The position numbers were made by a program, and so were the translations under genes. From Gemmatimonadaceae bacterium (GTDB lineage: Bacteria > Gemmatimonadota > Gemmatimonadetes > Gemmatimonadales > Gemmatimonadaceae), in NCBI GenBank assembly GCA_019637355.1, contig JAHBVT010000001.1, forward strand, positions 1,891,192 through 1,955,191: 64,000 nucleotides of DNA, given 5' to 3'. The notes beneath the pieces are model-generated. The model ran no database searches. It had not been told where the DNA came from and saw nothing but the letters and a program-made list of their open reading frames with translations. Positions within the stretch are counted from its first letter, which is position 1. The number at the start of each line of letters is the position of its first letter. Positions 18,314 to 52,658 of the stretch are shown here, in pieces.

Positions 18314-18317
<4 letters not shown>

Positions 18318-35388: not shown

Positions 35389-35426
35389 CGCGGGCGGCGG
35401 TGGCAGGCGTTCTCGCTCACGCGGGG

Positions 35427-35432: not shown

Positions 35433-35463
35433 CCCGCTCCGCAGGCCCCGGGCAGGTACTGAT

Positions 35464-35469
35464 TATAGA
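35464..35469 (+). promoter_or_regulatory. TATAGA -10-like box before the secreted-protein gene
   Basis: ACTGATTATAGATTGCGCGCG leads directly into the ATG at 35479. Transcription from this box would begin within a few bases of the start codon, so the mRNA would be leaderless; no ribosome-binding site is visible. Confidence 0.35.
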
Positions 35470-35478
35470 TTGCGCGCG

Positions 35479-36174: not shown

Positions 36175-36224
36175 CGGGCGTACACCCCGCTAGTGCACGT
36201 CACCAAATCCTGACAAGGAATCCG

Positions 36225-37571
36225 TTGATGCGTCTGCTTCTGACCCTCCTCTGCCTGGCCGTGGCCTCGCTGCCCGCGCAGGCGCAGTCCGCGCCGCCGA
36301 CCACCCTGACGCTGGATCAGGCCCTCGAGATCGCGGCCAAGAACAACCCGGTGTACCAGCAGTCCGTGCTGGGCCGCCGCCGCGCCCAGGCCCAGGTCCG
36401 CACCGCCTACGGCCAGTTCCTCCCCAGCGCCGACGGGTCCTTCGGCCTCGGTTTCCGCGAGGGCCGTCCCCAGAACTTCGGCGGCATCAACCTCGGCGCC
36501 ACCTCGGACATCCTCTCGTCCAGCTGGAACCTCAGCGCCAGCCAGCGCCTCTCCTGGAACACGTTCAACCGCATCAAGCAGGCCAATGCCTCGCTCGATG
36601 CCGCGGACGCTGAAGTCGATGCGGCGCGGTTCAACCTCGGCGCGCAGGTGACGCAGCAGTTCCTGCTCGCCCTCCAGACCCAGGCCCGCGCCGCGCTCCA
36701 GGACACGCTTGTCCTGCAGCAGCGCCTGCAGCTCGAACTGGCCAACGCCCGCGCCGGCGTCGGTGCCCTCACCTCGCTCGACGTCAAGCGCGCCGAGGTG
36801 GGCCTCGGTCAGCAGGAAGTGGCCGCCCTGCGCGCCCGCAACGCCGCCGACGTCGCCAAGCTGCAGCTCTTCCAGCAGCTCGGCGTGGCGATGCCGATGG
36901 CCACCGCGCTCGTGGCCGACCTGCAGGTCAGCGCCCCGACCTTCACCGCCGACGAACTGCTCGACGCGGCTCGCCAGGGCAATCCGTCCCTGCAGGCCGT
37001 GAAGGCCCGCGAGGTGGCCTCGGCCGCCGCGCTGCGGTCGGCGCGCGGCGACTACACGCCGACCCTGGGCTTCAACGCCAGCGTCAGCGCGTTCACACAG
37101 AAGTTGGTGGACCTGCCGGCGACGGCCACGCCGGAGCAGCGCGCCGAGAACGCGCGCTATCCGTTTGACTTCACGCGCAACCCGTACAATCTGTCGGTCG
37201 GGCTGTCGATTCCGATCTTTGATGGCCTCGGGCGTGAGTCGCGGCTGCAGGAAGCCGGCGCCGCGCGCGAAGAGGCGGCCTACAACGTGCGCCGCCAGGA
37301 GCTGCAGCTGACGGCCGACGTGACGTCGGCCTACGTGACGCTGGTCGCGGCCCACCGGGCGGTGGAGCTGCAGCAGCGCACGGCCGCCACCGCGCGCGAG
37401 GCGCTGGACCTGGCCCAGGAGCGGTACCGCGTCGGCGCCAACACCTTCGTGGACCTGACCACGGCGCGCGCCGAGTACGAGCGCGCGGAGACGGACCGCA
37501 TTGATGCGGTGTACGAATTCCACCGGGCGTTCGCGGCGCTGGAAGGCGCCGTCGGCCGCTCGCTTCGCTGA
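36225..37571 (+). CDS. TolC-family outer-membrane efflux protein
   Basis: A 448-residue protein with a signal peptide (LLTLLCLAVASLPAQAQ) and AAGGAA upstream of the ATG. The internal duplication of the family is visible. Each half has a long helical hairpin (KNNPVYQQSVLGRRRAQAQV; AQERYRVGANTFVDLTTARAEY) and a beta-barrel strand pair (SADGSFGLGF; NLSVGLSIPIFDG). It forms the trimeric outer-membrane duct of a tripartite exporter. With the adaptor, ATPase and permeases downstream it makes up a MacAB-TolC-like machine. The 15-bp gap to the adaptor gene supports one transcript. Confidence 0.9.
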   Translation: MMRLLLTLLCLAVASLPAQAQSAPPTTLTLDQALEIAAKNNPVYQQSVLGRRRAQAQVRTAYGQFLPSADGSFGLGFREGRPQNFGGINLGATSDILSSSWNLSASQRLSWNTFNRIKQANASLDAADAEVDAARFNLGAQVTQQFLLALQTQARAALQDTLVLQQRLQLELANARAGVGALTSLDVKRAEVGLGQQEVAALRARNAADVAKLQLFQQLGVAMPMATALVADLQVSAPTFTADELLDAARQGNPSLQAVKAREVASAAALRSARGDYTPTLGFNASVSAFTQKLVDLPATATPEQRAENARYPFDFTRNPYNLSVGLSIPIFDGLGRESRLQEAGAAREEAAYNVRRQELQLTADVTSAYVTLVAAHRAVELQQRTAATAREALDLAQERYRVGANTFVDLTTARAEYERAETDRIDAVYEFHRAFAALEGAVGRSLR

Positions 37572-37586
37572 TCCCCTGAGGACGCA

Positions 37587-38858
37587 ATGACCAAGAAGAC
37601 CAAGATCGGAATCGCTGTAGGCGTCCTCGTGGCCGTCGTCGCCGTGGTGGCGTCCGGCGCCGCGAAGGGCCGGAACAAGGGCACGCTGGTGCGCGTCGAG
37701 GCCGTGGAGGCCCGCGACCTCGTGTCCTCGGTCACCGCGAGCGGGCAGGTGCTGCCGACGCGCAAGGCCGATCTCTCCGCCGACATCACCGGCCGCATCA
37801 CGCGCATCGCCATCAAGGAAGGCGACAACGTGCGCGAGGGGCAGTTCCTGCTGCAGATCGACCCGCAGCAGTTCGAGGCCCAGGTGCAGCGTGCCGAGGC
37901 GTCGCTGGCCAACGCCCGCGCGGGCTTGGCGCAGGCCCGGGCCAATGAGCTGCAGGCGCGGCGCAACTTCGAGCGCCAGGCCGAGATCCGGAAGACCAAC
38001 GCCGCGTTGGTGTCCGAGGCCGAGCTCGAGCAGCTCGAGACGCAGTACGAGGTGAATCAGGCGCTCGTGGTCGCGGCGCAGGAGAACGTGAAGCAGGCCG
38101 AGGCGTCGCTGACGGACGCGCGCTGGCAGCTCTCGCGGACCAACATCTACGCCCCGATGACCGGCAAGGTGACCCGCCTCAACGTCGAGGTCGGCGAGAC
38201 CGCGATTATGGGTACGCTGAACCGCGACGCCGCAATCCTGATGACGATCTCGGATATGTCGATGCTCGAGACCAAGGTGAAGGTGGACGAGACGGACGTC
38301 TCGCGCATTCACGTCGGGGACTCGGCCGTCGTCCAAATCGATGCCTTCCCCGACACGACCTTCATCGGCCGCGTCGTGGAGATCTCCAACAGCTCGGTGC
38401 GCCGTGCCGCGACCGGCACGACGGACCAGGCCATCGACTATGAGGTGACGGTGCGCATCCTCAACGCGCCGCCCGAGACCCGCCCGGACTTCAGTTCCAC
38501 CGCCAAGATCGTGACGGATACGCGCACGCAGGTGCTGTCCATCCCGATCATCGCGCTGACCGTGCGCGAGAACGAACAGTTGCAGTCCAATGACGGTCCG
38601 GCCAACGCGGCCCAGTCGACGCAGCCGCAGATCGGTCGGCGCGACGTCGAGGGCGTGTTCGTGATCGACGCCGACAACAAAGTCAGCTTCCGGCCCGTAA
38701 AGGTCGGGATCGCCGGCGAGAAGCACTTCGAGGTGCTGTCCGGCCTCGAGCCCGGCACGCGCATCGTCGCGGGCACGTACCAGGCGATCCGCGAGTTGAA
38801 GGACGGGCAGCTCATCCGCGAGCAGCCCGCCGCCACTACCCCGACCAAGACGCCGTAA
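37587..38858 (+). CDS. MacA/HlyD-type periplasmic adaptor protein
   Basis: A 423-residue protein with GAGGA before the ATG. One N-terminal membrane anchor (IGIAVGVLVAVVAVVASGA) is followed by the biotinyl-lipoyl half (LSADITGRITRIAIKEGDNV). A helical hairpin of about 100 residues (AQVQRAEASLANARAGLAQAR and on), the second lipoyl half (IYAPMTGKVTRLNVEVGETA), a beta-barrel domain and a membrane-proximal domain complete it. It links the inner-membrane permease to the TolC-like channel. It belongs with ABC-type exporters because the next gene encodes the ATPase. Confidence 0.9.
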   Translation: MTKKTKIGIAVGVLVAVVAVVASGAAKGRNKGTLVRVEAVEARDLVSSVTASGQVLPTRKADLSADITGRITRIAIKEGDNVREGQFLLQIDPQQFEAQVQRAEASLANARAGLAQARANELQARRNFERQAEIRKTNAALVSEAELEQLETQYEVNQALVVAAQENVKQAEASLTDARWQLSRTNIYAPMTGKVTRLNVEVGETAIMGTLNRDAAILMTISDMSMLETKVKVDETDVSRIHVGDSAVVQIDAFPDTTFIGRVVEISNSSVRRAATGTTDQAIDYEVTVRILNAPPETRPDFSSTAKIVTDTRTQVLSIPIIALTVRENEQLQSNDGPANAAQSTQPQIGRRDVEGVFVIDADNKVSFRPVKVGIAGEKHFEVLSGLEPGTRIVAGTYQAIRELKDGQLIREQPAATTPTKTP

Positions 38859-38867
38859 GGAGCCCCG

Positions 38868-39671
38868 GTGAATACCGACCACGACGAGATCCCACTCAGT
38901 ACGACCGCCGAACGCCAGGCCGTCGTCACCTCCGCAGGCGATGCCCCGGGCAAGGAGTGGGTGATCGTCACCCGCGGCCTCAAGCGCGAGTACGATATGG
39001 GCGGCGAGATCGTGCGCGCGCTGCGCGGCGTGGACTTGGCCGTGAAGCGCAACGAGTACGTCGCCATTATGGGACCGTCCGGCTCCGGCAAGTCGACGCT
39101 GATGAACATCGTCGGCTGCCTCGACACGCCGAACGCCGGCGAGTACTGGCTCAACGGCCAGCTCGTCTCGACGATGAAGGACGACGAGCTCGCCCGCGTG
39201 CGCAACAAGGAGATCGGCTTCGTCTTCCAGACCTTCAACCTGCTGCCCCGCGCCTCGGCGCTGCACAACGTGGAGCTGCCGCTGGTCTACGCGGGTGTCT
39301 CGGCCTCGGAGCGCCGGGAGCGCGCGATGGAGGCGCTCACCAAGGTGCAGCTCGGCGAGCGCGTGCATCACCGCCCCAACGAACTCTCCGGCGGCCAGCG
39401 CCAGCGCGTGGCCATCGCGCGCGCGCTGGTGAACCGCCCGTCGATCCTGCTGGCTGACGAGCCCACCGGCAACCTCGACTCGCAGACGTCGGAAGAGATT
39501 ATGCGCGTCTTCGAGCACCTGGCCGACACCGGCCAGACGGTGATTATGGTGACGCACGAGCCCGACATCGCCGCGCACGCGCGTCGCGTCGTGGTGCTGC
39601 GCGACGGCCAGATCGCCAGCGACGAACGTCGGGCGGCGTTCACCGAGAAGCTCGGCATCTCGCTCGGCTGA
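38868..39671 (+). CDS. ABC exporter ATPase, MacB/LolD type
   Basis: A 267-residue protein starting with GTG behind AAGGAG. Walker A is GPSGSGKST, the Q-loop region reads [21 protein letters not shown], the signature is LSGGQRQR, and Walker B is [14 protein letters not shown] followed by the switch His in MVTHEPD. The [19 protein letters not shown] form is typical of MacB/LolD/FtsE-type ATPases. The N terminus is about 35 residues longer than usual. It is the only ATPase gene in the 15-kb locus, although six permease genes follow. Confidence 0.93.
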
Positions 39672-39685
39672 CCCGGAGTCGCCCC

Positions 39686-40930
39686 GTGCCGCTCCTCGAG
39701 GCCGTGCGCCTCGCCCTCGCGACCATCCGGGTGCAGAAGCTCAAGAGCTTCTTCACCCTGGCGGGCGTGTGCATCGGCGTGATGTTCCTCATCACGGTGG
39801 TGAGCATCATCGAGGGAATGGGGCGCTATATGAAGGACGACCTCGTGGGCAAGCTCATCGCGGTCAATTCCTTCGAGCTGCGGCGCTTCCCGAACATCAA
39901 TATGGGCGAGAGTTCGCCGGCCACCTGGGATGAATACCGGCGCCGGCCGCGGCTCTACATCTCGGACCTGCTGCCGGTGGTGGAGGCCCTGCCCGAGGGC
40001 ACACGCTGGGCGCAGGAGTCGGATGCCAACGTGCGCCTGGTCAGCCGCTACGCGCGGCCGCGCGCCGCCGAGGCCATCGGCATCGACGGTGACTGGTTCG
40101 CGATCAAGAACCTCGCCCTGCGCGACGGCCGGGAGTTCACGGCGCAGGAGATGACCAACGGCGAGAACGTGCTGATCATCGGGCCGGACGTGGTGGACCG
40201 TGTGTTCCCCGGCGTGGACCCCATCGGCCGCGAAGTGCGCATCGGCACCACGCCCTACCGGGTCATCGGCATCACCGAGTCGCGCGGCAGCGCCTTCGGC
40301 ATCTCGTTCGACAACTTCGTCATCGCCCCCTGGCGCTCGCCCATCCGCAAGCTGCTCAACCCCGCCCCGCAGATGATCGACGCGGTCATCATCCAGGCGG
40401 AGAACCAGGCCGTGATGATGGAGGCGCAGGAGCGGGTGCGCAGCGTGATGCGCACCACCCGCAAGCTGCGGCCCAGCCAGAAGGACAACTTCTCGATGCA
40501 GACCTCCGACTCGGCGCTGGAGTTCTGGAACAAGATCGAGGGCTACCTGATCGTCGCCGGCGTGGCCTTGCCGGCCATCGGACTGGTCGTGGGCGCGATC
40601 GTGATTATGAACATTATGCTCGTGGCCGTCGCCGAGCGGACGCGGGAGATCGGGATCCGCAAGGCGCTGGGCGCCAAGCGGCGCGACATCCTCGCGCAGT
40701 TCCTCGTGGAGTCGGCGACGCTGAGCACCGTCGGCGCGATGCTGGGCATCGCGATGGGCATCGGTTTCGCGCAGGCCATCGCGGCGGTGACGCCGCTGCC
40801 GGCCAGCGTGGCGCCCTGGAGCATCATCGTGGGGGTGAGCGTCGGGATGGGCGTGGGCATCGTGTCGGGCGTGTATCCGGCCAGCCGCGCCTCGCGGCTG
40901 GACCCGGTTGTCGCCCTGCGACAGGAGTAG
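39686..40930 (+). CDS. MacB/FtsX-type ABC permease, type A, first copy
   Basis: A 414-residue protein with a GTG start. One N-terminal helix (KSFFTLAGVCIGVMFLITVV) precedes a large periplasmic MacB-like core domain of about 230 residues. Three C-terminal FtsX helices follow, including a conserved NIMLVAVAERTREIGIRKALGAKRRD cytoplasmic loop split across residues about 300-335. It lacks its own ATPase domain, unlike E. coli MacB, and must use the separate ATPase just upstream. It is most similar to the proteins starting at 42191 and 48670 in this window. The following gene starts 3 bp after its stop. Confidence 0.9.
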   Translation: MPLLEAVRLALATIRVQKLKSFFTLAGVCIGVMFLITVVSIIEGMGRYMKDDLVGKLIAVNSFELRRFPNINMGESSPATWDEYRRRPRLYISDLLPVVEALPEGTRWAQESDANVRLVSRYARPRAAEAIGIDGDWFAIKNLALRDGREFTAQEMTNGENVLIIGPDVVDRVFPGVDPIGREVRIGTTPYRVIGITESRGSAFGISFDNFVIAPWRSPIRKLLNPAPQMIDAVIIQAENQAVMMEAQERVRSVMRTTRKLRPSQKDNFSMQTSDSALEFWNKIEGYLIVAGVALPAIGLVVGAIVIMNIMLVAVAERTREIGIRKALGAKRRDILAQFLVESATLSTVGAMLGIAMGIGFAQAIAAVTPLPASVAPWSIIVGVSVGMGVGIVSGVYPASRASRLDPVVALRQE

Positions 40931-40933
40931 CGG

Positions 40934-42187
40934 ATGAGCCTCTCCTCGAAGGTGTACAACCTCACCGAAGGGGTGCGCATCGCCGTCGAGAGCATCGTCG
41001 GCAACAAGGTGCGCGCCTTCCTGACGATTCTGGGTGTGGCGGTGGGCGTGTTCGTGGTCGTGGTGATCTCGGCGGCGATCCACGGCATCAACACGAGCGT
41101 CACCAAGGAGTTCGAGGCGACCGGGCCGACGACGTTCTTCGTGTCGCGCTATCCGATTTCCTTCGAGGCCTGCGACGGCACCGAGGACACCTGCAAATGG
41201 CTGCGCAACCCCCCCATCACCTGGGACGAGGTCGCGCGCCTCGCGGCGCTGGACGATGCCGCCGCCGTCGGCGTGCGGATGGACTGGACGGGCGCGTTCA
41301 AGTACCGCGACCAGTTGCTGCCCGCGGCGCAGATCGAGGCGTACACGGCCAACTGGAGCCAGTTCGGTGCGCCGGAGATGCTCCCGGGCGGGCGGGTGTT
41401 CACCGAGCAGGAGTTCCGCTCGGCCGCACGGGTGATCGTGCTGAACACCACGGCAGCGGAGCGCCTCTTCGGCGAGTCTGATCCGCTGGACAAGATGATG
41501 ACGGTGAACGGCAACCAGTTCCAGGTCATCGGCGTCTACAAGGACAAGGCCAGCTTCCTCACGGGCGCCGATCGCGCCAAGGGCGTGATGCCGGTGACCA
41601 CGCTGCAGCGGGCGCTGAACGTGCGGCGCGGGGATATGGGCTTGGTGGTCAAGCCGCGCGGGGCGGTGGCGCGCGATGACCTCGTGGACCAGGTGACCGC
41701 GACACTGCGTGGCGCACGGGGCCTGCGCCCCAGCGAGGAGTCGAACTTCTCAATCATCACCCAGGACAAGCTGATGGAGACCTGGGGGCGCATCACCACA
41801 GCGTTCTTCGCCGTGATGATCGCGCTCTCGGCGGTGGGCCTGATCGTCGGCGGCGTCGGGGTGGTGGCGATTATGATGATTTCGGTCACCGAGCGCACCC
41901 GTGAGATTGGCGTGCGCAAAGCGCTGGGCGCGACGCGGCTGACGATCCTCTGGCAGTTCCTGATCGAAGCGGTCACGCTCACGGGCATCGGGGCCGGCAT
42001 CGGGCTCGCCGGCGGCTGGGCGGTGTCGTTCCTGATCCGCAGCGGCACGAGCATCGAGGCCGCGATCCCGCCGGGCGCGGCCGTCGCCGCCCTGCTCGCG
42101 AGCGCCGTGACCGGCATCGTGTTCGGGATGGTGCCGGCCTTCCGCGCCGCGCGGCTGGATCCCGTCGAAGCGCTCCGCCACGAGTAG
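40934..42187 (+). CDS. MacB/FtsX-type ABC permease, type B, first copy
   Basis: A 417-residue protein. N-terminal helix NKVRAFLTILGVAVGVFVVV, periplasmic core, then three C-terminal helices around GVGVVAIMMISVTERTREIG. The periplasmic domain carries a close cysteine pair (EACDGTEDTCKWLRNPP, 8 residues apart) that could form a disulfide; the type A proteins lack it. It is most similar to the proteins at 43433 and 49908. It probably pairs with the preceding type A permease as a heterodimer. Confidence 0.9.
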   Translation: MSLSSKVYNLTEGVRIAVESIVGNKVRAFLTILGVAVGVFVVVVISAAIHGINTSVTKEFEATGPTTFFVSRYPISFEACDGTEDTCKWLRNPPITWDEVARLAALDDAAAVGVRMDWTGAFKYRDQLLPAAQIEAYTANWSQFGAPEMLPGGRVFTEQEFRSAARVIVLNTTAAERLFGESDPLDKMMTVNGNQFQVIGVYKDKASFLTGADRAKGVMPVTTLQRALNVRRGDMGLVVKPRGAVARDDLVDQVTATLRGARGLRPSEESNFSIITQDKLMETWGRITTAFFAVMIALSAVGLIVGGVGVVAIMMISVTERTREIGVRKALGATRLTILWQFLIEAVTLTGIGAGIGLAGGWAVSFLIRSGTSIEAAIPPGAAVAALLASAVTGIVFGMVPAFRAARLDPVEALRHE

Positions 42188-42190
42188 CGA

Positions 42191-43429
42191 ATGCCCTTCT
42201 TCGAAGCGGTCCGGCTGGCCTTGCAGACCATCCGCGTACAGAAGCTCAAGAGCTTCTTCACGCTCATCGGCGTGATGATCGGCGTGATGTTCCTGATTGC
42301 GGTGGTGAGCATCGTCGAGGGGATGAGCGACTACGTCGAGAATGACTTCGCCGCCAAGATCATCGGCGTGAACACCTTCGACGTGCGACGCTGGCCGAAC
42401 TTCACGCCCAACGAGTCGGACGACGAGTGGCGGGCCTACCTGCGCCGGCCGCGCGTGTTCCAGCCCGAGGCGGACGTGGTGGCCGAGGCGCTGGGTCCGT
42501 CGTTCCGCATCGCGCGCGTGAACGAGACCTTCCTGCAGGCCTTCGTGACCGGCGTGCGGCCGCAGAGCGTGCAGGCGATCGCCACCGACGAGAGCTACTT
42601 CGAGATCAAGAAGTTCGGCATTTCGAGCGGCCGCGCGTTCAACGCGCAGGATGTGGCCGCGGGCGCCAAGGTGGTCGTGATCGGGGACGAGCTGGCCAAG
42701 TACTACTGGCCGGGCCTCGACCCCATCGACCGCGAGATGCGGATCGCCGGCCAGACCTACCGCGTCATCGGCGTGATCGAGCCCCAGGGCTCGGTGTTCG
42801 GCTTCTCGATGGACCGGATGGCGATCGCGCCGTTCTCGACGCCGCTGTCGCGGGCCATCCGCCCGCGCGGCGACCTCGGCCGCATCACCGTGCAGGCGAC
42901 CAGCCGCGAGATCCTCGACGACGGAATGGAGTCGGTGCGCGAGGCCCTGCGCGGCTTCCGCCGCCTCGGCCCGGCCGATGGAGATAACTTCGCGCTCGAG
43001 ACCTCCGACGCGGCGCTCGGGTTCTTCGATGCGCTCAAGGGCAAGCTGATCCTGTTCGGCACGGCCCTGCCGGCCATCGGCCTCGTCGTGGGCGCGATGG
43101 TGATTATGAACATTATGCTCGTGGCGGTGGCCGAACGCACGCGCGAGATCGGCGTGCGCAAGGCGCTCGGCGCGCGGCGGCGCGACATCATCTCGCAGTT
43201 CCTCGTCGAGGCGGCGACGCTGTCGGTGATCGGCGCCGCCATCGGCGCGCTGATGGGCATCGCCATCGCGCAACTGATCGCGGCGGTCACGCCCCTGCCC
43301 GCCTCGGTCGCGCCGTGGTCGCTGGTGATGGCGCTGGTGGTCGGCGCGGGCGTGGGCATCGTCGCCGGCATCTATCCCGCCAGCCGCGCGGCGCGGCTGG
43401 ATCCCATCGCCGCCCTGCGCCAGGAGTAG
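42191..43429 (+). CDS. MacB/FtsX-type ABC permease, type A, second copy
   Basis: A 412-residue protein. The first 40 residues (EAVRLALQTIRVQKLKSFFT) are nearly identical to the first type A copy. The C-terminal FtsX region repeats the same LPAIGLVVGAMVIMNIMLVA block, while the periplasmic core is clearly diverged. This pattern suggests a shared docking apparatus with different periplasmic partners or cargo. It starts 3 bp after the previous stop, with the last GAG codon of the previous gene acting as a possible ribosome-binding element. Confidence 0.9.
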   Translation: MPFFEAVRLALQTIRVQKLKSFFTLIGVMIGVMFLIAVVSIVEGMSDYVENDFAAKIIGVNTFDVRRWPNFTPNESDDEWRAYLRRPRVFQPEADVVAEALGPSFRIARVNETFLQAFVTGVRPQSVQAIATDESYFEIKKFGISSGRAFNAQDVAAGAKVVVIGDELAKYYWPGLDPIDREMRIAGQTYRVIGVIEPQGSVFGFSMDRMAIAPFSTPLSRAIRPRGDLGRITVQATSREILDDGMESVREALRGFRRLGPADGDNFALETSDAALGFFDALKGKLILFGTALPAIGLVVGAMVIMNIMLVAVAERTREIGVRKALGARRRDIISQFLVEAATLSVIGAAIGALMGIAIAQLIAAVTPLPASVAPWSLVMALVVGAGVGIVAGIYPASRAARLDPIAALRQE

Positions 43430-43432
43430 CCG

Positions 43433-44695
43433 ATGCGTCTCTGGGACCGTTTGGCGATGACCTTCGAGGGCGTGCTGATGGCCCTCGAGTCGCTCAAGGC
43501 GAACAAGGTGCGTGCCGCGCTGACCATCTCGGGCGTTGCCGTCGGCGTGTTCGTCGTCGTCGCGATGGGCGCGACGGTGCACGGCATCCGCAACTCCTTC
43601 CAGTCTGATATGGACGAGTTCGGCACGGCCACCTTCCAGATCCGCCGCCGCAACCCGGGCTTCAGCAACTGCAACCCGACGACGGACTGCCCCGACCGCC
43701 GGAATCCGGGCGTGTCGCTCGCCGAGTGGCGCGCCGTGCGGCAACTGCCGGAGGTGGAGAGCGCAATGGCCTGGCTCTTCGGCGGCGGCACGGTGACGTA
43801 TCGCGACCGCATCGTCAAGAACGTGGGATACGACGCGCAGAGCACGGAATGGATCCGCACGGACCAGGCGGACATCGCGCCCGGCCGGACGTTCACCGAG
43901 TCGGAGCACGACGCGGCGGCGCTGGTGACGCTGGTGAACGCGAAGCTGGCCGAGGAACTCTTTGGCGACTCCGACCCGATCGGCAAGGAGATCGACCTGT
44001 CGGGCACGCGCTTCACGGTGATCGGCGTCTACCATACCAAGGCGGGCTTCCTGAAGTCGCTGGACGGTCGCGGCCCGGACACGCCCCGGATGGTCCTCCC
44101 GATGATGACGGCGTACCGCCGCCTCGGCGTCTGGCGCAACTCGATGATGGTGATGGTGAAGCCGCAGGCCACGGTGAGCCGCGACGACGCGATGGACGCG
44201 GTGACGGCGACGCTACGCGGGATGCGCGGCCTGCGCCCCAGCCAGCCCAACACGTTCTACCTGGTCGGACAGGACAAGATGATGGAGACCTTCGACCAGC
44301 TCTTCGGTGCGATCTTTATGGTCGGCCTCGGGCTCTCGGCCGTGGGCCTGCTGGTGGGTGGCGTCGGCGTGGTGGCCATTATGATGATCTCGGTCACGGA
44401 ACGCACGCGGGAGATCGGCGTGCGCAAGGCGCTGGGCGCGACGCGCGGCATCATCCTCTGGCAGTTCCTGGTCGAGGCGGCGACGCTGACGACGCTGGGC
44501 GCGACAATCGGCCTCGTGCTGGGCGGCGGGCTGGCCTGGGTGATCCGCGCCAATTCGACCATCCCCGCGACGATCCCCCTCGGCGCCATCGTCGCGTCGC
44601 TGCTCGGCGCCGCGATGACCGGCATCGTGTTCGGGATGCTTCCGGCGTCGCGGGCGTCGCGGCTGGACCCGGTCGAGGCACTGCGGCACGAGTAG
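43433..44695 (+). CDS. MacB/FtsX-type ABC permease, type B, second copy
   Basis: A 420-residue protein. N-terminal helix NKVRAALTISGVAVGVFVVV matches the first type B copy. The periplasmic core has a cysteine pair (SNCNPTTDCPDRRNP, 6 residues apart) in the same place. The C-terminal region keeps GVGVVAIMMISVTERTREIG and ends RLDPVEALRHE, identical to copy one. It completes the second A-B pair. The 51 bp after its stop precede the binding-protein-like gene. Confidence 0.9.
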   Translation: MRLWDRLAMTFEGVLMALESLKANKVRAALTISGVAVGVFVVVAMGATVHGIRNSFQSDMDEFGTATFQIRRRNPGFSNCNPTTDCPDRRNPGVSLAEWRAVRQLPEVESAMAWLFGGGTVTYRDRIVKNVGYDAQSTEWIRTDQADIAPGRTFTESEHDAAALVTLVNAKLAEELFGDSDPIGKEIDLSGTRFTVIGVYHTKAGFLKSLDGRGPDTPRMVLPMMTAYRRLGVWRNSMMVMVKPQATVSRDDAMDAVTATLRGMRGLRPSQPNTFYLVGQDKMMETFDQLFGAIFMVGLGLSAVGLLVGGVGVVAIMMISVTERTREIGVRKALGATRGIILWQFLVEAATLTTLGATIGLVLGGGLAWVIRANSTIPATIPLGAIVASLLGAAMTGIVFGMLPASRASRLDPVEALRHE

Positions 44696-44746
44696 CGCGT
44701 GCCGCCGCCCCTCGCGGTGGCGGCGTAGGCGTAGCATCCTTCGAGG

Positions 44747-45907
44747 GTGCGCCTTCTCTCACGATGCCCTGCGCGTCCGATGTGCGCGGTCGCTGTTGCC
44801 GCAGTGCTCGCGGCCGCCTGCTCCGACGGCGTGGCACGCCCGGCCATCGGCTTCACCTACAACTGGGGTGACTCCCCACTTGAGCGATTCGTGGAGCACG
44901 CGCTCAATGACGGAGTGCGGCCGCGCGACTCCCTGCGCCTGGTGTTCGAGTCGCGGGGCGGTTGGCAGCAGTACGGCAGTTCCACGATGGCGGCCGAGGT
45001 GCGGCGCGCGAGCCTGATCGCGGCCGACTCGGAGGTGCTGGCCGTGATCGGGCCGGGTGGCAGTCGCGAAGCCCTGCAGGTGGCCCCCATCTACGCCGAA
45101 GCCGGTGTGGCGATGATCGTCCCGACGGGGACCAGTCGACTGCTCGCCGGCGCGGGCGACCACGTGCTCCGGTTGGCCCCAGACGATTCGGTGCAGGGCG
45201 AGTTCATCGCGGCCTTCGCCGACACGGCTCTGGGCGCGAAGTCATTGGCCGTCTTTCACGTGCCCGACGAATATGGCATCGGATTGGCGGCCGGGACGGC
45301 ATCGACCGCGGCCGCCCGCGGGCTGCAGATCCTCGTGCGCACGCCGATCGCCTTGGTGCGAGCCTGCGGCGATCGCGGGGATGGTGATGCCTACTATGCG
45401 CGACTCGCCACCGATCTGGCGCGCCGCGGACGTCCGGACGCCGTGGTGCTGGCGATGCGCACGGTCGAGGCCGGATGCCTCGCCACTGCGCTGCGGGCCC
45501 GCTGGCCTGGCATCGTCTTGATCGCCGGTGACGGGGTGTATCTCGACACGCCGCTGTTCAACAGCGCCGGCACGGCCGTCGACGGGATGTACCTCGTGGC
45601 GTTCTGGCATCCGGAGATCCCGTCGGCGCGGGCCCGGGAGTTCGCGGTGGAGTACCGGCGGGTGACCGGCCGCGAACCGCGCCACGGCGATGCCGTGTTC
45701 GTGGACGGCGCGCTGTTGGTCGCGCAAGCCATCCGCGGCGGCGCACGCTCGCGGCCCGCGCTGCTGCGCGCGCTGCGCGAGACCGGGACGCGGCGTCCGG
45801 CCTTTGAGGGCTACAGTGGCACGATCAGCTTCGCGTCGGACGCGCGGCGCCCGCTGTGGATGACGCGCATCGTCGGCCGCGGCTCCGTCCTGCTCGCCGG
45901 CCGATGA
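44747..45907 (+). CDS. Periplasmic-binding-protein-like lipoprotein (Leu/Ile/Val type)
   Basis: A 386-residue protein with a GTG start and lipobox AAVLAAACSD. The fold is that of type I periplasmic binding proteins: SEVLAVIGPGGSREALQVAPIY, GVAMIVPTGTSRLL, a DEYGIGLAAGTASTAAARGL strand-helix block, PDAVVLAMRTVE and VDGMYLVAFWHPE. Such proteins bind amino acids, amides or small organic acids. No LIV-type permease is nearby. Its stop overlaps the start of a hybrid histidine kinase (ATGA), so the likely role is ligand sensing at the membrane, like other binding protein-kinase pairs. That role is inference. Confidence 0.82.
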   Translation: MRLLSRCPARPMCAVAVAAVLAAACSDGVARPAIGFTYNWGDSPLERFVEHALNDGVRPRDSLRLVFESRGGWQQYGSSTMAAEVRRASLIAADSEVLAVIGPGGSREALQVAPIYAEAGVAMIVPTGTSRLLAGAGDHVLRLAPDDSVQGEFIAAFADTALGAKSLAVFHVPDEYGIGLAAGTASTAAARGLQILVRTPIALVRACGDRGDGDAYYARLATDLARRGRPDAVVLAMRTVEAGCLATALRARWPGIVLIAGDGVYLDTPLFNSAGTAVDGMYLVAFWHPEIPSARAREFAVEYRRVTGREPRHGDAVFVDGALLVAQAIRGGARSRPALLRALRETGTRRPAFEGYSGTISFASDARRPLWMTRIVGRGSVLLAGR

Positions 45908-48660
45908 GCCGGCCGCGGCGGGCGCTGCCGCTCCGCGTCCTCCTGTCGCTGTTCGCGGCGACCACAGTCGTGTACGTCACCATCGTCGCGGCGCAGCTCA
46001 TCCGGACGATCGTGCCGCTGGCCCAGGACCTGCGTGGCCGGTCGCGGGACCTGCTCGACGATCACGACCGGGTGTCGGCCAGCCTGGTTGCGCTGCACGA
46101 GGCGCGGCGGCAGCTCGCGCGCCTGGCGCCGCCGCTCGTGCCCGGCGCCGAGCCCCTGCCCGACCGCGACCGGCTGCGCGACTCGCTGTTGGCCTTGCTC
46201 GACCGCAGCGCCTCCATGCGGGCCAGCATCGACCGCGCGGACGTCCCGCTCGAGATGCGCCTGCTGCTCGCCGACGCAGTCGGTGCGGAGGCGGCGATTG
46301 CGGTGACGCTGCTCGAGGCCGAGCGCGCCATCGCGGTGAACCAGCCGCAGGCGGCCGTCGTGGCGTTCCGGGCGTCGGGGATCCTCTCGGACTCCGCCCG
46401 CAGCCTCCTCTCGCGCGCGCAGCGCGTGGCCATCGCGCACACGCTGGAACGCCAGGAAGGCCTGGCCGCCGAGCTGACGGAGCTCGAGCGATTCTCGCTG
46501 GCGTTCGCGCTGCTGGGCACGGTGTTGCTCGTGATCGGGGTGTGGATTGCGCGCACGCGGGTCTACCTCCCGGTGCAGGCGATGGCACGGGCCGTCCAGC
46601 GTGTGTCGTCGGGCGACCTCGATGCCGACGTCCGGGTGACGCACGACGACGAGCTGGGCCAGCTCGGCCAGCACCTCAACGAGATGACGGCGGTGCTGCG
46701 GGAGCGGGCCGCGGACGAGACCCGACGCCGGGAGAACCTGACTGAGCGCTTCGGGCGCATCCTCGACTCCTCCGCCAGCGCGATCTGCGTGTTCGACGGG
46801 ACGAGCCTGCAGGTGGTACTGGCCAACCGCGGCGCGTCTGAGATCTTCGGGTGCAGTGCCGACGCGCTGCGACAGCGGCGCCTGTCCGACCTACTCGGGG
46901 GACTCTCGCCGGAGCGCCTCGAGGCCCTGCTGTCCGAATTGCAGGGCCCGGAGGCCCCGCGCGTCCTGCTGACAACGTGGCTGACGCGCGCCGACGGCCG
47001 TCTGCGCGCCGCCGAGGTCGCGCTGCAGGCCTCGCGGGACGAGGATGCCAGCGTGATCGTGCTGGTCGCCGAGGATGCGGCGGCGCGGGAGCAGATGCGC
47101 GACTTCGACGCGCGCCTGCGAGAGTTCGCGCTCGAGCACGAGCGGGCAATCGGCCGCGGCGACGTGGTCGGGACGATGCGGCTCCTCACCGCCTTCGTCT
47201 GCGACACGCTGGACGCGGACCGCTGCGGCGTGTGGCGGGTCGGCGGAGGCGGCGCCGAGGCCGTCGCCGTGTTCGACGCCGTCAGCGGCGCGCACCGCGA
47301 CGACCTGCCGCTCGACGCTGGCTCCGACGGACCGGAGACCTATCGCTGCGCCATCCGCGTCGGCGGCCGCGAGACGGCGATGCTGGCCGTCCGCCGCGAT
47401 AGCCGCGCCTTCTCGATGGACGAACGCAGCTTTGTGGGCGCGGTGGCGGATCTCGCCGTGCGCACCTTCGAGGCCGCGGCGCGCAGCACGCTCGAGCAGG
47501 CGCTGGCCCGTGCGCACCGGATGGACTCGATCGGCCAACTGGCCGGCGGCGTGGCGCACGACTTCAACAACCTGCTGACGGCGATTCTCGGGAACCTCGA
47601 GGCCAGCCGCGCCGGGCTGGAGCGGGGCTCCGAGCTCGACGTCGCGCTGGGGGAGGCGGAACACGCGGCCCTGCGCGCCGCCGATCTCACGCGCCAGCTG
47701 CTGACCTTCGCGCGGCAGCAGGTGGTAGAAACGCGCGCCGTGCGGGTGGAATCACGCGTCAGTGACGCCGAAGCGATGCTCCGGCGTCTCGTCGGGCCCG
47801 AGCGCGCGTTGCGCCTCGCACTGGAACCGCCCGTCGGCAGCGTGCGGCTGGGATCCGGGCAGCTGGAGCAGATCCTCGTCAACCTGGTCGTGAATGCGCG
47901 CGACGCGACGCCGGCCGGCGGCGCGATCGACATCGAGGCCCGCCGTCGCACGCTCAGCGAGGCCGAGCTGGTGCAGTTCCCGGGACTGCAGGCCGGGGAG
48001 CACGTGGAGCTCGTGGTGCGCGACACGGGGGTCGGGATGGACCAGGCCACCCTGGAGCGGGTGTTCGAGCCGTTCTTCACCACCAAGGGGGTCGGCGCGG
48101 GCACCGGCCTCGGCCTCGCGGTGTGCTACGGCATCGTCCGCAACGCGGGGGGCGTGATCTCCGCCACGAGCACGCCCGGAGCGGGCACGACCTTCCGCAT
48201 CCTGCTGCCCAGCACCCCGGAGCGGGACTCGCCGCGGCCCGGGTCGGCGACGACGGCCGAGACGCGCGGCGTGACCGTGCTGGTGGCGGAGGACGAACCC
48301 GCCATCCGTGCGCTGGTCTCGCGGATGCTGGCCGCTCGCGGGTTCCGCGTGCTGACCGCCGCCGATGGCGACGAGGCCCTCGGCGTCGCGTCGCGCGAGC
48401 CGGGTCCGATCGAGCTGCTCGTCACGGACGTGGTGATGCCCCGCCTCGGCGGCGTGGAGCTGGCGCGCGGCCTGCGGGCCATCCGGCCGGACGTCCGGAT
48501 CCTGTTTATGTCGGGCTACGCGGCCACGGCGCCGATCGAGGACGGCGAGTTCGGGGATGCCGCCTTCCTCGCCAAGCCCTTCAACACGCAGGAACTGCTG
48601 CGGCGGGTGCAGGAGCTGCTGCGTGGCGACACCGAATCCGCACGCGCGACACCCCACTAG
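45904..48660 (+). CDS. Hybrid histidine kinase with HAMP, PAS and GAF domains and a receiver
   Basis: A 918-residue protein. Membrane helix one (about 12-32) and helix two (about 200-218) enclose a helical sensor domain. HAMP (VYLPVQAMARAVQRVSSGDL), PAS (about 280-395) and GAF (about 420-525) follow. The phospho-acceptor is H552 in GGVAHDFNN, the HATPase has NLVVNARDATPAGG and GAGTGLGLAVCYG, and the receiver phospho-acceptor is D842 in LVTDVVMPR. It is co-translated with the binding-protein-like lipoprotein, the obvious candidate for its ligand receptor. No DNA-binding output gene adjoins; permease genes follow after 9 bp. Confidence 0.92.
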   Translation: MSRPRRALPLRVLLSLFAATTVVYVTIVAAQLIRTIVPLAQDLRGRSRDLLDDHDRVSASLVALHEARRQLARLAPPLVPGAEPLPDRDRLRDSLLALLDRSASMRASIDRADVPLEMRLLLADAVGAEAAIAVTLLEAERAIAVNQPQAAVVAFRASGILSDSARSLLSRAQRVAIAHTLERQEGLAAELTELERFSLAFALLGTVLLVIGVWIARTRVYLPVQAMARAVQRVSSGDLDADVRVTHDDELGQLGQHLNEMTAVLRERAADETRRRENLTERFGRILDSSASAICVFDGTSLQVVLANRGASEIFGCSADALRQRRLSDLLGGLSPERLEALLSELQGPEAPRVLLTTWLTRADGRLRAAEVALQASRDEDASVIVLVAEDAAAREQMRDFDARLREFALEHERAIGRGDVVGTMRLLTAFVCDTLDADRCGVWRVGGGGAEAVAVFDAVSGAHRDDLPLDAGSDGPETYRCAIRVGGRETAMLAVRRDSRAFSMDERSFVGAVADLAVRTFEAAARSTLEQALARAHRMDSIGQLAGGVAHDFNNLLTAILGNLEASRAGLERGSELDVALGEAEHAALRAADLTRQLLTFARQQVVETRAVRVESRVSDAEAMLRRLVGPERALRLALEPPVGSVRLGSGQLEQILVNLVVNARDATPAGGAIDIEARRRTLSEAELVQFPGLQAGEHVELVVRDTGVGMDQATLERVFEPFFTTKGVGAGTGLGLAVCYGIVRNAGGVISATSTPGAGTTFRILLPSTPERDSPRPGSATTAETRGVTVLVAEDEPAIRALVSRMLAARGFRVLTAADGDEALGVASREPGPIELLVTDVVMPRLGGVELARGLRAIRPDVRILFMSGYAATAPIEDGEFGDAAFLAKPFNTQELLRRVQELLRGDTESARATPH

Positions 48661-48669
48661 ATTTCGGGC

Positions 48670-49911
48670 GTGCGCCCTTCGGACGTCGTCGGCATCGCCG
48701 TCGCGCAGATTCGCGGGAATCCCCTGCGGACCTTCTTCACGCTGCTCGGGATCATCGTCTCCGTCGCGTTCCTGATTGCGGTGGTGGCGATCATCCAGGG
48801 AATGAACGCGTACGTGAAGGAAAACATCGCCGACGCGATGGTCGGGACGAACGCGTTTCAGGTACGCCGCACGCCGATCCAGGTGGGACTGATCGACGAC
48901 GAGTTGATGGCGCGCATCCGCCGGCGCCCGGTGATCTCTCCCGAGGACGCCGAGGCCGTGCGCGCGGCGCTGCCGGAGGCGATCGCCGTGTCACGGCAAT
49001 CGGGCTGGCCGACGCCGATCACCGAGGTCTTCTGGCGCGGCCGTTCGGTGGGCGGCATCCTGATCTTCGGCATCACGCCCGAGTTCCAAGTCGTGCAGGA
49101 CTATCGGGTCCGCGCCGGTCGCCCGATCTCGCCGGTGGACGTGTCGCAGCGGATGAACTCGGTGGTGCTCGGCACCGAGCTCGCGGAGAAGCTCTTCGAG
49201 ACGGTGGACCCGATCGGCCAGGAAGTGCGCCTCGCCGGCGAGCGCTTCGTCGTGGTGGGCGTCAACGAGCCCAAGGGCCGCGTGCTCGGCCAGTCCTTCG
49301 ACGCCTACGTGCTGATCCCGATTTCGCGCTTCGAGATGCGCTTCGGGCGGCGGCTGACGACGACGATCTCGGTGAAGGCGTCGGACACGTCGGACGTGGA
49401 CGGGATGATGGCGCGCGCCGAAGAGGCGATGCGCGTGGCGCACGGCCTGCGCCCGGGCCAGGAGAACGACTTCTCGATCGAGACCTCCGAGGCCTTGGTG
49501 GCCTTCTGGAAGAGCCTGACGCAGATCCTGTTCGCGGTGATCCCGGCGGTGGTCGCCATCGGCATCGTCGTCGGCGGCATCGTGATCATGAACATTATGC
49601 TGATGGCGGTGAACGAGCGGACGCGCGAGATCGGCATCCGCAAGGCCGTCGGCGCGCGCGCGCGGGACATCGAGCGGCAGTTCTTGGTGGAGACGGTAAT
49701 GCTCTCGGCGTTGGGCGGCGTGATCGGCGTGCTGGCGGGCTGGGCCTTCGCGTTCCTGATCTCGGTGGTGTCGCCGCTGCCGGCGCGCATCACCTGGTGG
49801 TCGGTGGCGGTGGCGCTCGGGCTCGGGGCGGGCATCGGCGTGGTCTTCGGCGTGTACCCGGCGCGGCGCGCGGCGCGACTGGATCCGGTGACGGCGATGC
49901 GGGCGGAATGA
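48670..49911 (+). CDS. MacB/FtsX-type ABC permease, type A, third copy
   Basis: A 413-residue protein with a GTG start. N-terminal helix NPLRTFFTLLGIIVSVAFLI, periplasmic core, and the GIVVGGIVIMNIMLMAVNERTREIGIRKAVGA block cut across the last three helices. It is more diverged than the first two type A copies. Its start lacks the VQKLKSFF stretch. No ATPase gene accompanies it, so it should depend on the ATPase at 38868 or one elsewhere. Its stop overlaps the next start (ATGA). Confidence 0.88.
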   Translation: MRPSDVVGIAVAQIRGNPLRTFFTLLGIIVSVAFLIAVVAIIQGMNAYVKENIADAMVGTNAFQVRRTPIQVGLIDDELMARIRRRPVISPEDAEAVRAALPEAIAVSRQSGWPTPITEVFWRGRSVGGILIFGITPEFQVVQDYRVRAGRPISPVDVSQRMNSVVLGTELAEKLFETVDPIGQEVRLAGERFVVVGVNEPKGRVLGQSFDAYVLIPISRFEMRFGRRLTTTISVKASDTSDVDGMMARAEEAMRVAHGLRPGQENDFSIETSEALVAFWKSLTQILFAVIPAVVAIGIVVGGIVIMNIMLMAVNERTREIGIRKAVGARARDIERQFLVETVMLSALGGVIGVLAGWAFAFLISVVSPLPARITWWSVAVALGLGAGIGVVFGVYPARRAARLDPVTAMRAE

Positions 49912-51167
49912 TGCGGCGCCTCCTGCGGTACCTCGAGCAGTACAAGGAGAATCTCGCCATTGCGATGGAGACGCTACGCGTGGCCAAGCTGCGCAGTGCG
50001 TTGACGATTCTCGGAGTGGTCATCGGCGTGGCGACCGTGATGACGATGGCCTCGCTGGTGGAAGGCCTGCGCGCGCAGATCATCCGCACGGTGGAGATTG
50101 CCGGCCCGACGACCTTCTATGTGCTCAAGGTCTACTCCAGCACGCCGATCAATCCGCAGAACCCGCCGGCGTATGTGCGCATCCGGCCGGACCTGACCAT
50201 CGACGAGGCCGAGCTGATCGCGCGGTTGCCTGAGGTAGCGTACGCGTCGATCTGGGGGCAGACGGTGCAACGGCTCTCCGTCGGCGGCGAGCGCACGCAA
50301 CCGACGGCCATCTTCGGCGCGGATGCCGGCTACCCGTTGGTGCAGGGCGGTGAGCTCAGCGCCGGACGCTGGTTCACACGCAACGAGATCCTGGGCGGCG
50401 CGGCGGTGGTCGTCCTCGACGAGGCGAAGGCGCGGCAGCTCTTCGGCCGCGCCAACCCGCTCGGCAAGACGGTCCGCGTCGGGAGCCGACCGATGGAGGT
50501 GATCGGGCTGTACCAGCCGCCGGAGAATATCTTCGCGCCGCAGGGTTCCGAGACGGGTGCGATCATCCCATTCCGCCTCCTGGACGTGCAGTTCGAGATC
50601 GACCGGACGAATGCGCTCTGGATCCCAGTGCGGCCGCGCAGCGGCGTCAGCGTGGAGGCGGCGCAGGAGGCGGTGACGATCGCGCTACGCGAGCACCGGC
50701 GCCTGCGGCCGGCGCAGCGCAACAGCTTCGATCTCGTCACGCAGGACCAGATCCTCGATGTGTTCAACCAGCTGACGGGCGTGTTCTTCGTGGTGATGCT
50801 GGTGCTAGCGTCGGTGGCCCTGCTGGTGGGCGGCATCGGCGTGATGGCCATTATGATGGTCTCGGTCACCGACCGGACGCGAGAGATCGGCATCCGGAAG
50901 GCGCTGGGCGCGACCCGCGGCGACATCGCGGTGCAGTTCTTGATCGAAGCCGCCACGCTCACAGGCATCGGGGGCGCGGTCGGCATTGCGGTGGGACTCG
51001 GCACGGGCCAACTGGTGACGCGACTACTGGGCATCGAGGCGTCACCGCCCTTGGCCTACACGCTCGTGGCCGTCGTGGTCTCGGTGGGGATTGGCGTGGT
51101 GTTCGGCGTCCTGCCGGCGCGGCGGGCGGCACGTCTCGATCCAATCGAAGCGCTGCGCTACGAGTAG
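49908..51167 (+). CDS. MacB/FtsX-type ABC permease, type B, third copy
   Basis: A 419-residue protein (a second ATG follows at once at 49911). N-terminal helix AKLRSALTILGVVIGVATVM, periplasmic core, then GGIGVMAIMMVSVTDRTREIGI and a C-terminal end RLDPIEALRYE. It aligns with the other type B proteins, but the cysteine pair is replaced by a proline-rich stretch (STPINPQNPPAYVRI). It forms the third A-B pair with the preceding gene. It is the last gene of the locus; a helicase gene with its own repeat-flanked context follows. Confidence 0.88.
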   Translation: MMRRLLRYLEQYKENLAIAMETLRVAKLRSALTILGVVIGVATVMTMASLVEGLRAQIIRTVEIAGPTTFYVLKVYSSTPINPQNPPAYVRIRPDLTIDEAELIARLPEVAYASIWGQTVQRLSVGGERTQPTAIFGADAGYPLVQGGELSAGRWFTRNEILGGAAVVVLDEAKARQLFGRANPLGKTVRVGSRPMEVIGLYQPPENIFAPQGSETGAIIPFRLLDVQFEIDRTNALWIPVRPRSGVSVEAAQEAVTIALREHRRLRPAQRNSFDLVTQDQILDVFNQLTGVFFVVMLVLASVALLVGGIGVMAIMMVSVTDRTREIGIRKALGATRGDIAVQFLIEAATLTGIGGAVGIAVGLGTGQLVTRLLGIEASPPLAYTLVAVVVSVGIGVVFGVLPARRAARLDPIEALRYE

Positions 51168-51250
51168 CGGCAGGCAGAACGGGCGGCAACCCGATAGCTT
51201 TCAGCAGCGCCGCGGACTGCGGCGCGCAGCCGAGCGCGAACACCGCGCTC

Positions 51251-51272
51251 CTTCAGTCTTCCGCTTTCCGCC
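51251..51272 (-). repeat. GACGGAA-type repeat, single arm before the helicase gene
   Basis: CTTCAGTCTTCCGCTTTCCG is the reverse complement of degenerate GACGGAA and GACTGAA units. It lies immediately upstream of the TTG start of the helicase gene; other arms lie in and behind the 3' end of that gene. Confidence 0.65.
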
Positions 51273-51275
51273 ATT

Positions 51276-52658
51276 TTGTCTTCATTCGCTACGCTCGGCC
51301 TCGCCGACCCGCTCCTCCGCGCCGCCGCCGACCTCGGCTGGACCAAGCCGACCCCCATCCAAATCGACGCCATCCCTCCCGCCCGCGACGGGCGTGACGT
51401 GCTCGCCTGCGCCCAGACGGGCTCCGGCAAGACGGGGGGCTTCCTGCTGCCGTTGCTGCACCGTCTGCTAGCCAACCCCACGCGCGCCACGCGCGCGCTG
51501 GTGCTGACACCGACACGCGAGCTGGCGGCGCAGGTGCACGCCGACCTCGTGGACCTCGCCAAGTTCACCTCCCTGCGCGCCGCGCCTGTGTTCGGGGGCG
51601 TCGGGATGGGCCCTCAGGAGACGGCCTTCCGGCAGAAGGTGGACGTCATCATCGCCACGCCGGGACGCCTGCTCGACCATCTCGGACAGCCCGGCAAGTA
51701 CGTCGATTTCTCGACGCTCGAGGTGCTCGTGCTCGACGAAGCCGACCGGATGCTCGATATGGGCTTCCTGCCGGCCATCAAGCAGGTGCTGCGGCAGATC
51801 CCGACCAAGCGGCAGACGCTGTTCTTCAGCGCCACGCTGCCGGCGCCGATCGTCGAGCTCTCCAAGCAGATGCTGCAGGATCCGGCGCGCCTCAACGTGG
51901 AGCGCGTGGCCAAGCCGGCGGCGAAGATCGAGCAGGCGGTGTGGCCGGTGAAGGAGGCGCTCAAGCCGGACCTGTTCCTCGCGTTGCTGCGAGCCAACGT
52001 CATCGGCAACGTGATCTGCTTCACGCGCACCAAGCATCGCTCCAACCGGCTCGCCGAGATCCTCACGAAGGCCGGCGTGCCCAACGCCCGCATCCACGGC
52101 AACCGCTCGCAGGCACAGCGCACCGAGGCCCTGGCCCACTTCAAGGACGGCAAGATCCGCGTGCTCGTGGCGACAGACATCGTCGCCCGCGGCATCGACG
52201 TCGAGGCGCTGGAGCACGTGGTGAACTTCGACGTGCCGCACGTGCCGGAGGACTACATCCACCGCGTGGGCCGCACCGCGCGCGCCGAAGCGACGGGCGA
52301 GGCCTTCACCCTGGTCTCACCGGAGGAAGAAGCCGACCTGCGGCAGATCGAGAAGGCCATCCACAAAAAGCTGGCGCGGCGCACGCTCGAGGGCTTTGAC
52401 TACAACCACGTGCCGGTGGAGCGCTTCGAGGTGCCGCTCGCCGAGCGCATCGCGGCGATCCGGGCGCGCAAGAAGGAAGAGCGGGAACGGGCGAAGGCCA
52501 AGTTGGAGCGAAAGGCGGTCGGGGCTACAGGACGGAAGACGGATGACGGAAGTGGCGCAGCACCCAAGCGGCGGCGACGTCGGGGAGGCTCAGGCCGCGG
52601 TGGCTCTGGGCGCGGGCCCGGTGGCGGGTCGTCCGGCGGGAACCCGTACCGCGACTAG
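51276..52658 (+). CDS. DEAD-box ATP-dependent RNA helicase
   Basis: A 460-residue protein with a TTG start. Helicase motifs in order: PTPIQIDAIP (Q motif), AQTGSGKT (I), PTRELAAQ (Ia), TPGRLLDHL, DEAD in VLDEADRMLDMGF (II), SAT (III), ARIHGNRSQAQR, VATDIVARGID (V) and HRVGRTAR (VI). It belongs to the RhlE-like branch. The C-terminal tail of about 90 residues is basic and Arg/Gly-rich (KRRRRRGGSGRGGSGRGPGG), typical for RNA contact. The segment GRKTDDGS in the tail is encoded by a GACGGAA-type repeat inside the gene. It unwinds short RNA duplexes in ribosome assembly or decay. Confidence 0.93.
   Translation: MSSFATLGLADPLLRAAADLGWTKPTPIQIDAIPPARDGRDVLACAQTGSGKTGGFLLPLLHRLLANPTRATRALVLTPTRELAAQVHADLVDLAKFTSLRAAPVFGGVGMGPQETAFRQKVDVIIATPGRLLDHLGQPGKYVDFSTLEVLVLDEADRMLDMGFLPAIKQVLRQIPTKRQTLFFSATLPAPIVELSKQMLQDPARLNVERVAKPAAKIEQAVWPVKEALKPDLFLALLRANVIGNVICFTRTKHRSNRLAEILTKAGVPNARIHGNRSQAQRTEALAHFKDGKIRVLVATDIVARGIDVEALEHVVNFDVPHVPEDYIHRVGRTARAEATGEAFTLVSPEEEADLRQIEKAIHKKLARRTLEGFDYNHVPVERFEVPLAERIAAIRARKKEERERAKAKLERKAVGATGRKTDDGSGAAPKRRRRRGGSGRGGSGRGPGGGSSGGNPYRD

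Follow-up and report, generated by a model that had tools for sequence, protein, structure and literature searches.

Within a 64,000-nucleotide (nt) stretch of the genome of a Gemmatimonadaceae bacterium (contig JAHBVT010000001.1, positions 1,891,192 to 1,955,191; we call the whole of this stretch “the window”), two overlapping genes, one for a lipoprotein built like a periplasmic binding protein and one for a hybrid histidine kinase, lie inside an operon for a MacB-type exporter. What is a binding protein with its own kinase doing in such a place? The elements of the pair are these:

44747 to 45907, forward strand: Peripla_BP_6 lipoprotein (type I periplasmic-binding-protein fold), the ligand-binding subunit (Pfam, model)
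45904 to 45907, forward strand: ATGA stop/start overlap of the lipoprotein and kinase genes (sequence)
45904 to 48660, forward strand: hybrid histidine kinase, with the order first transmembrane segment (TM1), four-helix-bundle outer domain, second transmembrane segment (TM2), HAMP, PAS, GAF-like, HisKA, HATPase_c and REC (Pfam, model)

The lipoprotein gene runs from a GTG start at 44747 to a stop at 45907 and encodes 386 residues. An initial annotation of the window had assigned its product to the type I periplasmic-binding-protein fold, and this is borne out by a profile search with Peripla_BP_6 (PF13458; E = 2.5e-19, 70.6 bits, exceeding the cut-off of 31.7) and by a structural model (mean predicted local distance difference test score, pLDDT, 85.7) whose matches include LivJ (4gnr, Z 39.1), LivK (3td9, Z 37.4) and the gamma-aminobutyric acid receptor Atu2422 (Z 34.8). 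At the N-terminus, a lipobox-like LAAA^C motif, found both by eye and by script, follows Arg2, Arg6 and Arg10 and ends in Cys25, the probable lipid-anchored residue. From Cys25 to the first strand of the model there are 7 residues, a spacing that would suit a protein held at the surface of a membrane.

The kinase ATG at 45904 falls within the final codons of the lipoprotein gene (..CGATGAGC..), which makes the overlap 4 nt, and the 918-residue kinase ends at 48660. Its HAMP, PAS, HisKA, HATPase_c and REC domains all exceed their Pfam cut-offs; the top-scoring models for the catalytic and REC part are those of CckA, under their own cut-offs. The GAF domain that the initial annotation had included scores weakly in the window (18.7 bits where the cut-off is 22.4; E = 0.0027), but it passes in the orthologue of one relative, G015, at 25.7 bits. 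Outside the membrane, at about residues 40 to 195, the kinase is modelled as a helical domain of about 150 residues: the model of residues 1 to 275 (mean pLDDT 78, predicted template modelling score 0.55) has two shorter helices between two long ones whose ends are transmembrane, forming a four-helix bundle that leads into HAMP. Its structural matches are the outer domains of PcaY (Z 14.1), Tsr (Z 13.5), Tar (Z 13.4) and LytS-N of the XylFII–LytS complex (Z 13.2, root-mean-square deviation 2.2 over 120 residues). Arg68 and Arg69 are invariant in a seven-row alignment and Arg73 in a five-row one, and all three fall near the ligand-binding arginines of Tar; judged from these residues, the bundle might itself also bind a ligand.

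Around the pair, the exporter operon has the following parts:

36228 to 37571, forward strand: outer membrane efflux protein (TolC-like, OEP)
37587 to 38858, forward strand: membrane fusion protein, MFP (HlyD_D23/HlyD_3)
38868 to 39671, forward strand: ATP-binding cassette (ABC) ATPase
39686 to 40930, forward strand: MacB/FtsX-type permease 1
40934 to 42187, forward strand: MacB/FtsX-type permease 2
42191 to 43429, forward strand: MacB/FtsX-type permease 3
43433 to 44695, forward strand: MacB/FtsX-type permease 4
48670 to 49911, forward strand: MacB/FtsX-type permease 5
49908 to 51167, forward strand: MacB/FtsX-type permease 6

All the parts of a MacB-type tripartite exporter are thus found at the locus—permeases (MacB_PCD and FtsX are above cut-off in all six), membrane fusion protein and outer membrane factor—with the difference from MacB itself that the ATPase is a separate protein of 267 residues, not fused to the permeases of 412 to 420. 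A gene for a 231-residue protein (35479) stands ahead of OEP and a DEAD-box helicase gene (51276) after permease 6. The lipoprotein and kinase genes sit, exactly as the initial annotation had placed them, between permease pairs 2 and 3 (that is, between permeases 4 and 5), 51 nt after the permease 4 stop at 44695 and, on the other side, 9 nt before permease 5; with gaps this small, the pair is probably cotranscribed with the exporter. A single ATPase gene serves three permease pairs here (39686 to 51167), and several genomes of the genus have two pairs only, of the types of permeases 3 to 6 (L072, L074, L080, L081). Rfam gave no match at gathering scores over 35000 to 52000, and a comparison with plasmid records gave four weak matches, each with coverage below 80%.

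If one wishes to know what a binding protein is for, then the company that its relatives keep is a good place to look. Our sample of relatives held 61 genomes (the source genome is G000), 37 of which have matches to the lipoprotein. We fetched 57 stretches, covering the places of all 56 matches and a third copy in the source genome, with one place fetched twice. From them, we labelled 53 lipoprotein genes, the third copy and those at 52 of the matched places, leaving out G018 and one match each in G027, G026 and G058; among the places left out, a hybrid kinase adjoins at G027, and a Peripla_BP_6 gene followed by a phosphodiesterase lies at G058. Our gene calls rest on codon usage that a script learned from ten genes of the window, and we named the partners from phmmer comparisons with a few probes, with a Pfam check on a subset (five kinases and seven methyl-accepting chemotaxis proteins, MCPs, besides the window kinase). 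The whole-family lipoprotein alignment was too divergent to serve as a search query. The binding-protein tree and all site counts rest on 51 of the 53 proteins, those of at least 280 residues, and the lipobox script is positive in 39 of these, several of the remainder looking like lipoproteins by eye.

Downstream on the same strand, at any gap, the first gene encodes a histidine kinase in 23 of the 53 cases, an MCP in another 23, a second binding protein (followed by a kinase) in one and something else in six. In other words, 46 of these genes precede a transducer; 33 overlap it by 4 nt, and 44 lie at most 100 nt from it (the other two gaps are 155 and 572 nt). The source genome repeats the pattern on a small scale: Pfam finds three Peripla_BP_6 genes in it, each overlapping its transducer partner by 4 nt, the partner being a hybrid kinase at 1379 kb (HAMP, PAS and a dCache-like match below cut-off) and an MCP at 368 kb. 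On the tree of the 51 lipoproteins, the kinase or MCP label needs three changes, of which the well-supported branches alone force two, for the MCP group; in view of these changes, there was probably more than one exchange of partners. At one locus (L046:9898-14457), two tandem binding-protein genes stand ahead of one hybrid kinase, which suggests two inputs into one transducer.

The ligand pocket speaks to the same family. At the positions aligned to LivK S79, T102, Y150 and E226, which we take to be ligand contacts, the 51 proteins have serine (51 of 51); threonine (30) or serine (20); tyrosine (46) or phenylalanine (3); and aspartate (50), respectively. This conservation, together with the LivJ- and LivK-like model, suggests that the ligand is an alpha-amino acid or a close analogue. 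Arg238 of the window lipoprotein aligns to LivK Tyr202, a position that holds arginine in 14 of 23 kinase-paired proteins vs. 1 of 22 MCP-paired ones; such an arginine would fit as a match for an acidic side chain of the ligand. Eleven of the 51 proteins, every one of them kinase-paired, have both Cys207 and Cys244, which possibly form a disulfide.

Binding proteins of this fold are, of course, usually read as uptake proteins, and so, the permeases deserve a control of their own. Probes made from Escherichia coli LivH and LivM (E up to 1e-3) find no match in the window or in the other loci read, in agreement with the initial annotation, which had seen no uptake permease (the agreement extends to close LIV-type permeases). 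The only two BPD_transp_2 matches in the source genome lie at 2965 to 2967 kb, beside a 484-residue ABC ATPase and about 1 Mb from the pair, in a stretch that holds no LivK-like gene. As a control, we took the 30 best-scoring (hence not random) Peripla_BP_6 loci of 81 genomes sampled across the phylum, 20 of them outside and 10 inside the order (Gemmatimonadales, the order of Gemmatimonadaceae). Outside the order, LivH or LivM stands beside 7 of the 20 loci, so the method detects uptake operons where they are present; LivH, LivM or an ABC-type ATPase stands beside 13, and of the rest, 4 have a kinase upstream and 3 have none of these. Inside the order (where 5 of the 10 loci repeat earlier places), an MCP comes next in nine. 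At the tenth (L116:1-2526), there is a 4-nt overlap between the Peripla_BP_6 gene and one for a Ser/Thr protein kinase, so that Ser/Thr kinases may be a third type of output partner for the family.

How did the pair come to be among the permeases? The MFP of the exporter is nearly everywhere in the sample, being found (E up to 1e-30) in 59 of the 61 genomes. Just five (G000, G002, G007, G011 and G015) have permease 4, lipoprotein, kinase and permease 5 in this order, and the order is absent from the exporter loci of all 12 other genomes of the genus in the sample. The lipoproteins of the other four genomes with this order are 54 to 56% (three) and 48% (one) identical to that of the window, and at such distances, the shared arrangement is not chance. 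The lipoprotein gene adjoins the kinase gene in all seven of the nearest pairs, and two of these seven (G005 and G009) are close pairs away from the exporter, followed by a fatty-acid hydroxylase gene. Our trees were quick ones: on that of the permeases (24 genomes), the five genomes form one clade with a Shimodaira–Hasegawa-like approximate likelihood ratio of 99, and on that of the lipoproteins, the corresponding clade has a support of 26 only. Since the five form a single clade on the permease tree, one insertion suffices, and our best reading is that the pair would have entered once, just ahead of permease 5, in an ancestor of the five sampled genomes. The conservation beside permeases that the initial annotation had proposed to check is therefore real within this clade. 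In the family as a whole, it is the reverse: a MacB-type permease lies within four genes of 5 of the 53 lipoprotein genes (the same clade) and that near to none of the other 48, so that the family lives mostly away from permease genes, the outcome which the initial annotation had named as speaking against its proposal.

The slot before permease 5 holds other things elsewhere: a major facilitator superfamily (MFS) gene in G028 (L086:2529-3722); a TonB receptor, with a GAF kinase on the opposite strand, in G022, where permeases 3 and 4 are missing (L085:5817-9419); and a small open reading frame (ORF), as at L073:5471-5836 and L083:844-1233, which in G003 and G016 is on the opposite strand. The slot is not special to sensors.

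Taken together, the transducer neighbors of the relatives, the model and the conserved pocket positions support well a sensory role for the pair, as the initial annotation had supposed, and we consider it quite probable that lipoprotein and kinase constitute one binding-protein-dependent receptor, which recognizes an amino-acid-like ligand, sends its output through REC and entered the exporter operon as a module. On the outer side of the inner membrane, the lipoprotein would bind a small ligand resembling an alpha-amino acid and would dock on the four-helix-bundle domain of a kinase dimer, at helices 3 and 4 if one may argue by analogy with XylFII–LytS (PMC9769921). The resulting change would travel by way of HAMP, PAS and GAF into the HisKA/HATPase core and the REC domain of the same kinase and, from there, would pass to an HPt protein or a response regulator coded elsewhere. 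Across the order, Peripla_BP_6 proteins would likewise be the binding subunits of receptors that signal through a kinase or a chemoreceptor.

Several observations weigh against this proposal. Within the exporter operon, we found neither a response regulator gene nor one for an HPt protein; the genome has three HPt places, none inside the window, and the window has a sigma-54-type response regulator gene on the opposite strand at 16944 to 18317, about 27.6 kb from the pair. Both the output of the kinase and any control of the exporter are therefore put forward at the level of hypothesis. Z values of 13 to 14 are near the stated background of the tool for helical models, four-helix bundles match many proteins and the best Foldseek E for the outer domain is 3.4e-3. 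In seven of the 53 cases, what follows the family gene is not a transducer (one of the seven is the tandem copy before a pair), and a further family gene, missed by the probes, precedes a phosphodiesterase (L109). The LivH and LivM probes missed the source genome's own BPD_transp_2 pair and so, exclude close LIV-type permeases only. Between the outer domains of ten MCP partners and those of the window kinase group, hhalign detects no relation (probability 1%), and for lack of that signal, we dropped the idea that the two kinds of outer domain have a common origin. Finally, neighboring genes for a solute-binding protein (SBP) and a kinase are, according to PMC11113362, not always functionally linked.

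Whom, then, would such a receptor serve? The pair could be an independent receptor, passively hitch-hiking on the exporter promoter and controlling other matters, behavior or metabolism for example, a view compatible with the receptor proposal and one that we regard as a serious contender falling just short of probable. It draws on the relatives without an exporter nearby, on the other genes that the slot takes and on the operon having no response regulator of its own; against it stands the retention of the pair, uninterrupted, in all five genomes of the clade.

That retention, despite lipoprotein identities of 48 to 56%, and the spacing of pair and exporter as a single transcription unit are what favor dedicated control, a special case of the receptor proposal in which the lipoprotein senses the exporter substrate or some cue and the kinase adjusts exporter expression. 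The initial annotation had said as much, that the pair tunes the exporter. We hold such regulation to be possible but would lean against it: likely cotranscription and the order in the one clade stand, but 12 exporters of the genus do without the pair in an operon whose MFP is almost universal, nearly all family members have no permease near them, two of the nearest pairs sit by the fatty-acid hydroxylase gene instead and the slot holds unrelated genes elsewhere. The DEAD-helicase neighbor, moreover, is kept in most genus loci too, so that gene order here is conservative in general and a kept order says less than it might. Narrower still is a closed loop, in which the receptor would read the product of the core exporter in the periplasm and the cotranslated kinase would set expression of the shared operon, making a binding-protein-gated exporter; we think this unlikely.

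It is very improbable that the lipoprotein is a substrate-capturing periplasmic subunit of the pump: its gene is within the operon, and ABC exporter-like genes immediately precede two other members of the family, but none of the five exporter loci has the lipoprotein without the kinase, and at the 12 other loci of the genus, the exporter does without the lipoprotein. Of the two members, one follows NHLP bacteriocin export genes (NCBIfam) at L051:2497-11758, where a DUF7005 gene and no transducer comes next, and the other follows ABC exporter-like genes (one Pfam-checked) at L066:4188-10752. Scarcely credible, in our judgment, is an orphan uptake binding protein that stands by a kinase by chance, for all that it has the sequence and fold of a LIV-type uptake binding protein: LivH and LivM are not found at the loci, the sole BPD_transp_2 matches are distant and 46 of the 53 family genes precede a transducer.

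In this order, Peripla_BP_6 proteins seem in large part to have turned into receptor subunits, with outputs of at least two kinds (kinase or chemoreceptor), and it would be misleading to give them names that refer to the uptake of branched-chain amino acids. The pair in the window offers a ready case in which to ask whether a receptor of this sort is able to govern an exporter.

Kinase genes in the operons of FtsX/MacB-type transporters are familiar from BceRS–BceAB and MacRS–MacABC, which do without a binding protein, and Bce-type kinases have a very short outer loop between two helices and no large outer domain. The window operon differs in having a binding protein and in that a response regulator was not found in it, and the window kinase differs from BceS-like kinases in its modelled outer helical domain. 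TorS, a hybrid kinase with HAMP that senses trimethylamine N-oxide, has a larger outer domain and, in addition, an HPt domain. The models of the TorS family find only the catalytic and REC part of the window kinase, at scores far below their cut-offs. The plan of TorT–TorS in E. coli (a binding protein with a membrane kinase) is nonetheless that of our pair, and its complex, like those of XylFII–LytS and LuxP–LuxQ, has a known structure (PMC6321045). The initial annotation knew of no described system with such a coupling; binding proteins that work through kinases are, in fact, well described, and what we did not find, in a narrow literature search, is a published pair of this kind inside a MacB-type operon. 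In the account of PMC11113362, 10 of the 11 characterized SBP–kinase couples have genes that are adjacent or nearly so, and the Pseudomonas aeruginosa couples tested there, AgtS and AruS, gave no interaction.

The lipoprotein–MCP pairs of the order follow the plan of BasB–BasT and CosB–CosT in Halobacterium salinarum, where binding proteins serve a chemotaxis transducer and BasB detects branched-chain amino acids (PMC2857822, PMC3579733); output there is chemotaxis, whereas the window pair has a kinase. In GlnH–GlnX of Corynebacterium glutamicum, the periplasmic domains of the transmembrane partner match 6ITS and 5XSJ (PMC9769921), as does the outer domain of the window kinase, although GlnX, which is not a histidine kinase, acts on the protein kinase PknG. 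The architecture that we propose is also that of XylFII–LytS of Clostridium beijerinckii, in which the binding protein docks on the four-helix outer domain of the kinase, sitting on helices H3 and H4 of the LytS bundle (PMC9769921), just as the window lipoprotein may dock on a domain whose model matches LytS-N at Z 13.2, a value common among helical bundles. The ligand there is xylose, whereas the window pocket looks to be of the amino acid type and the window kinase is a hybrid with HAMP, PAS and GAF. On our best reading, then, the pair is a receptor of a known kind that lies within a core exporter operon.

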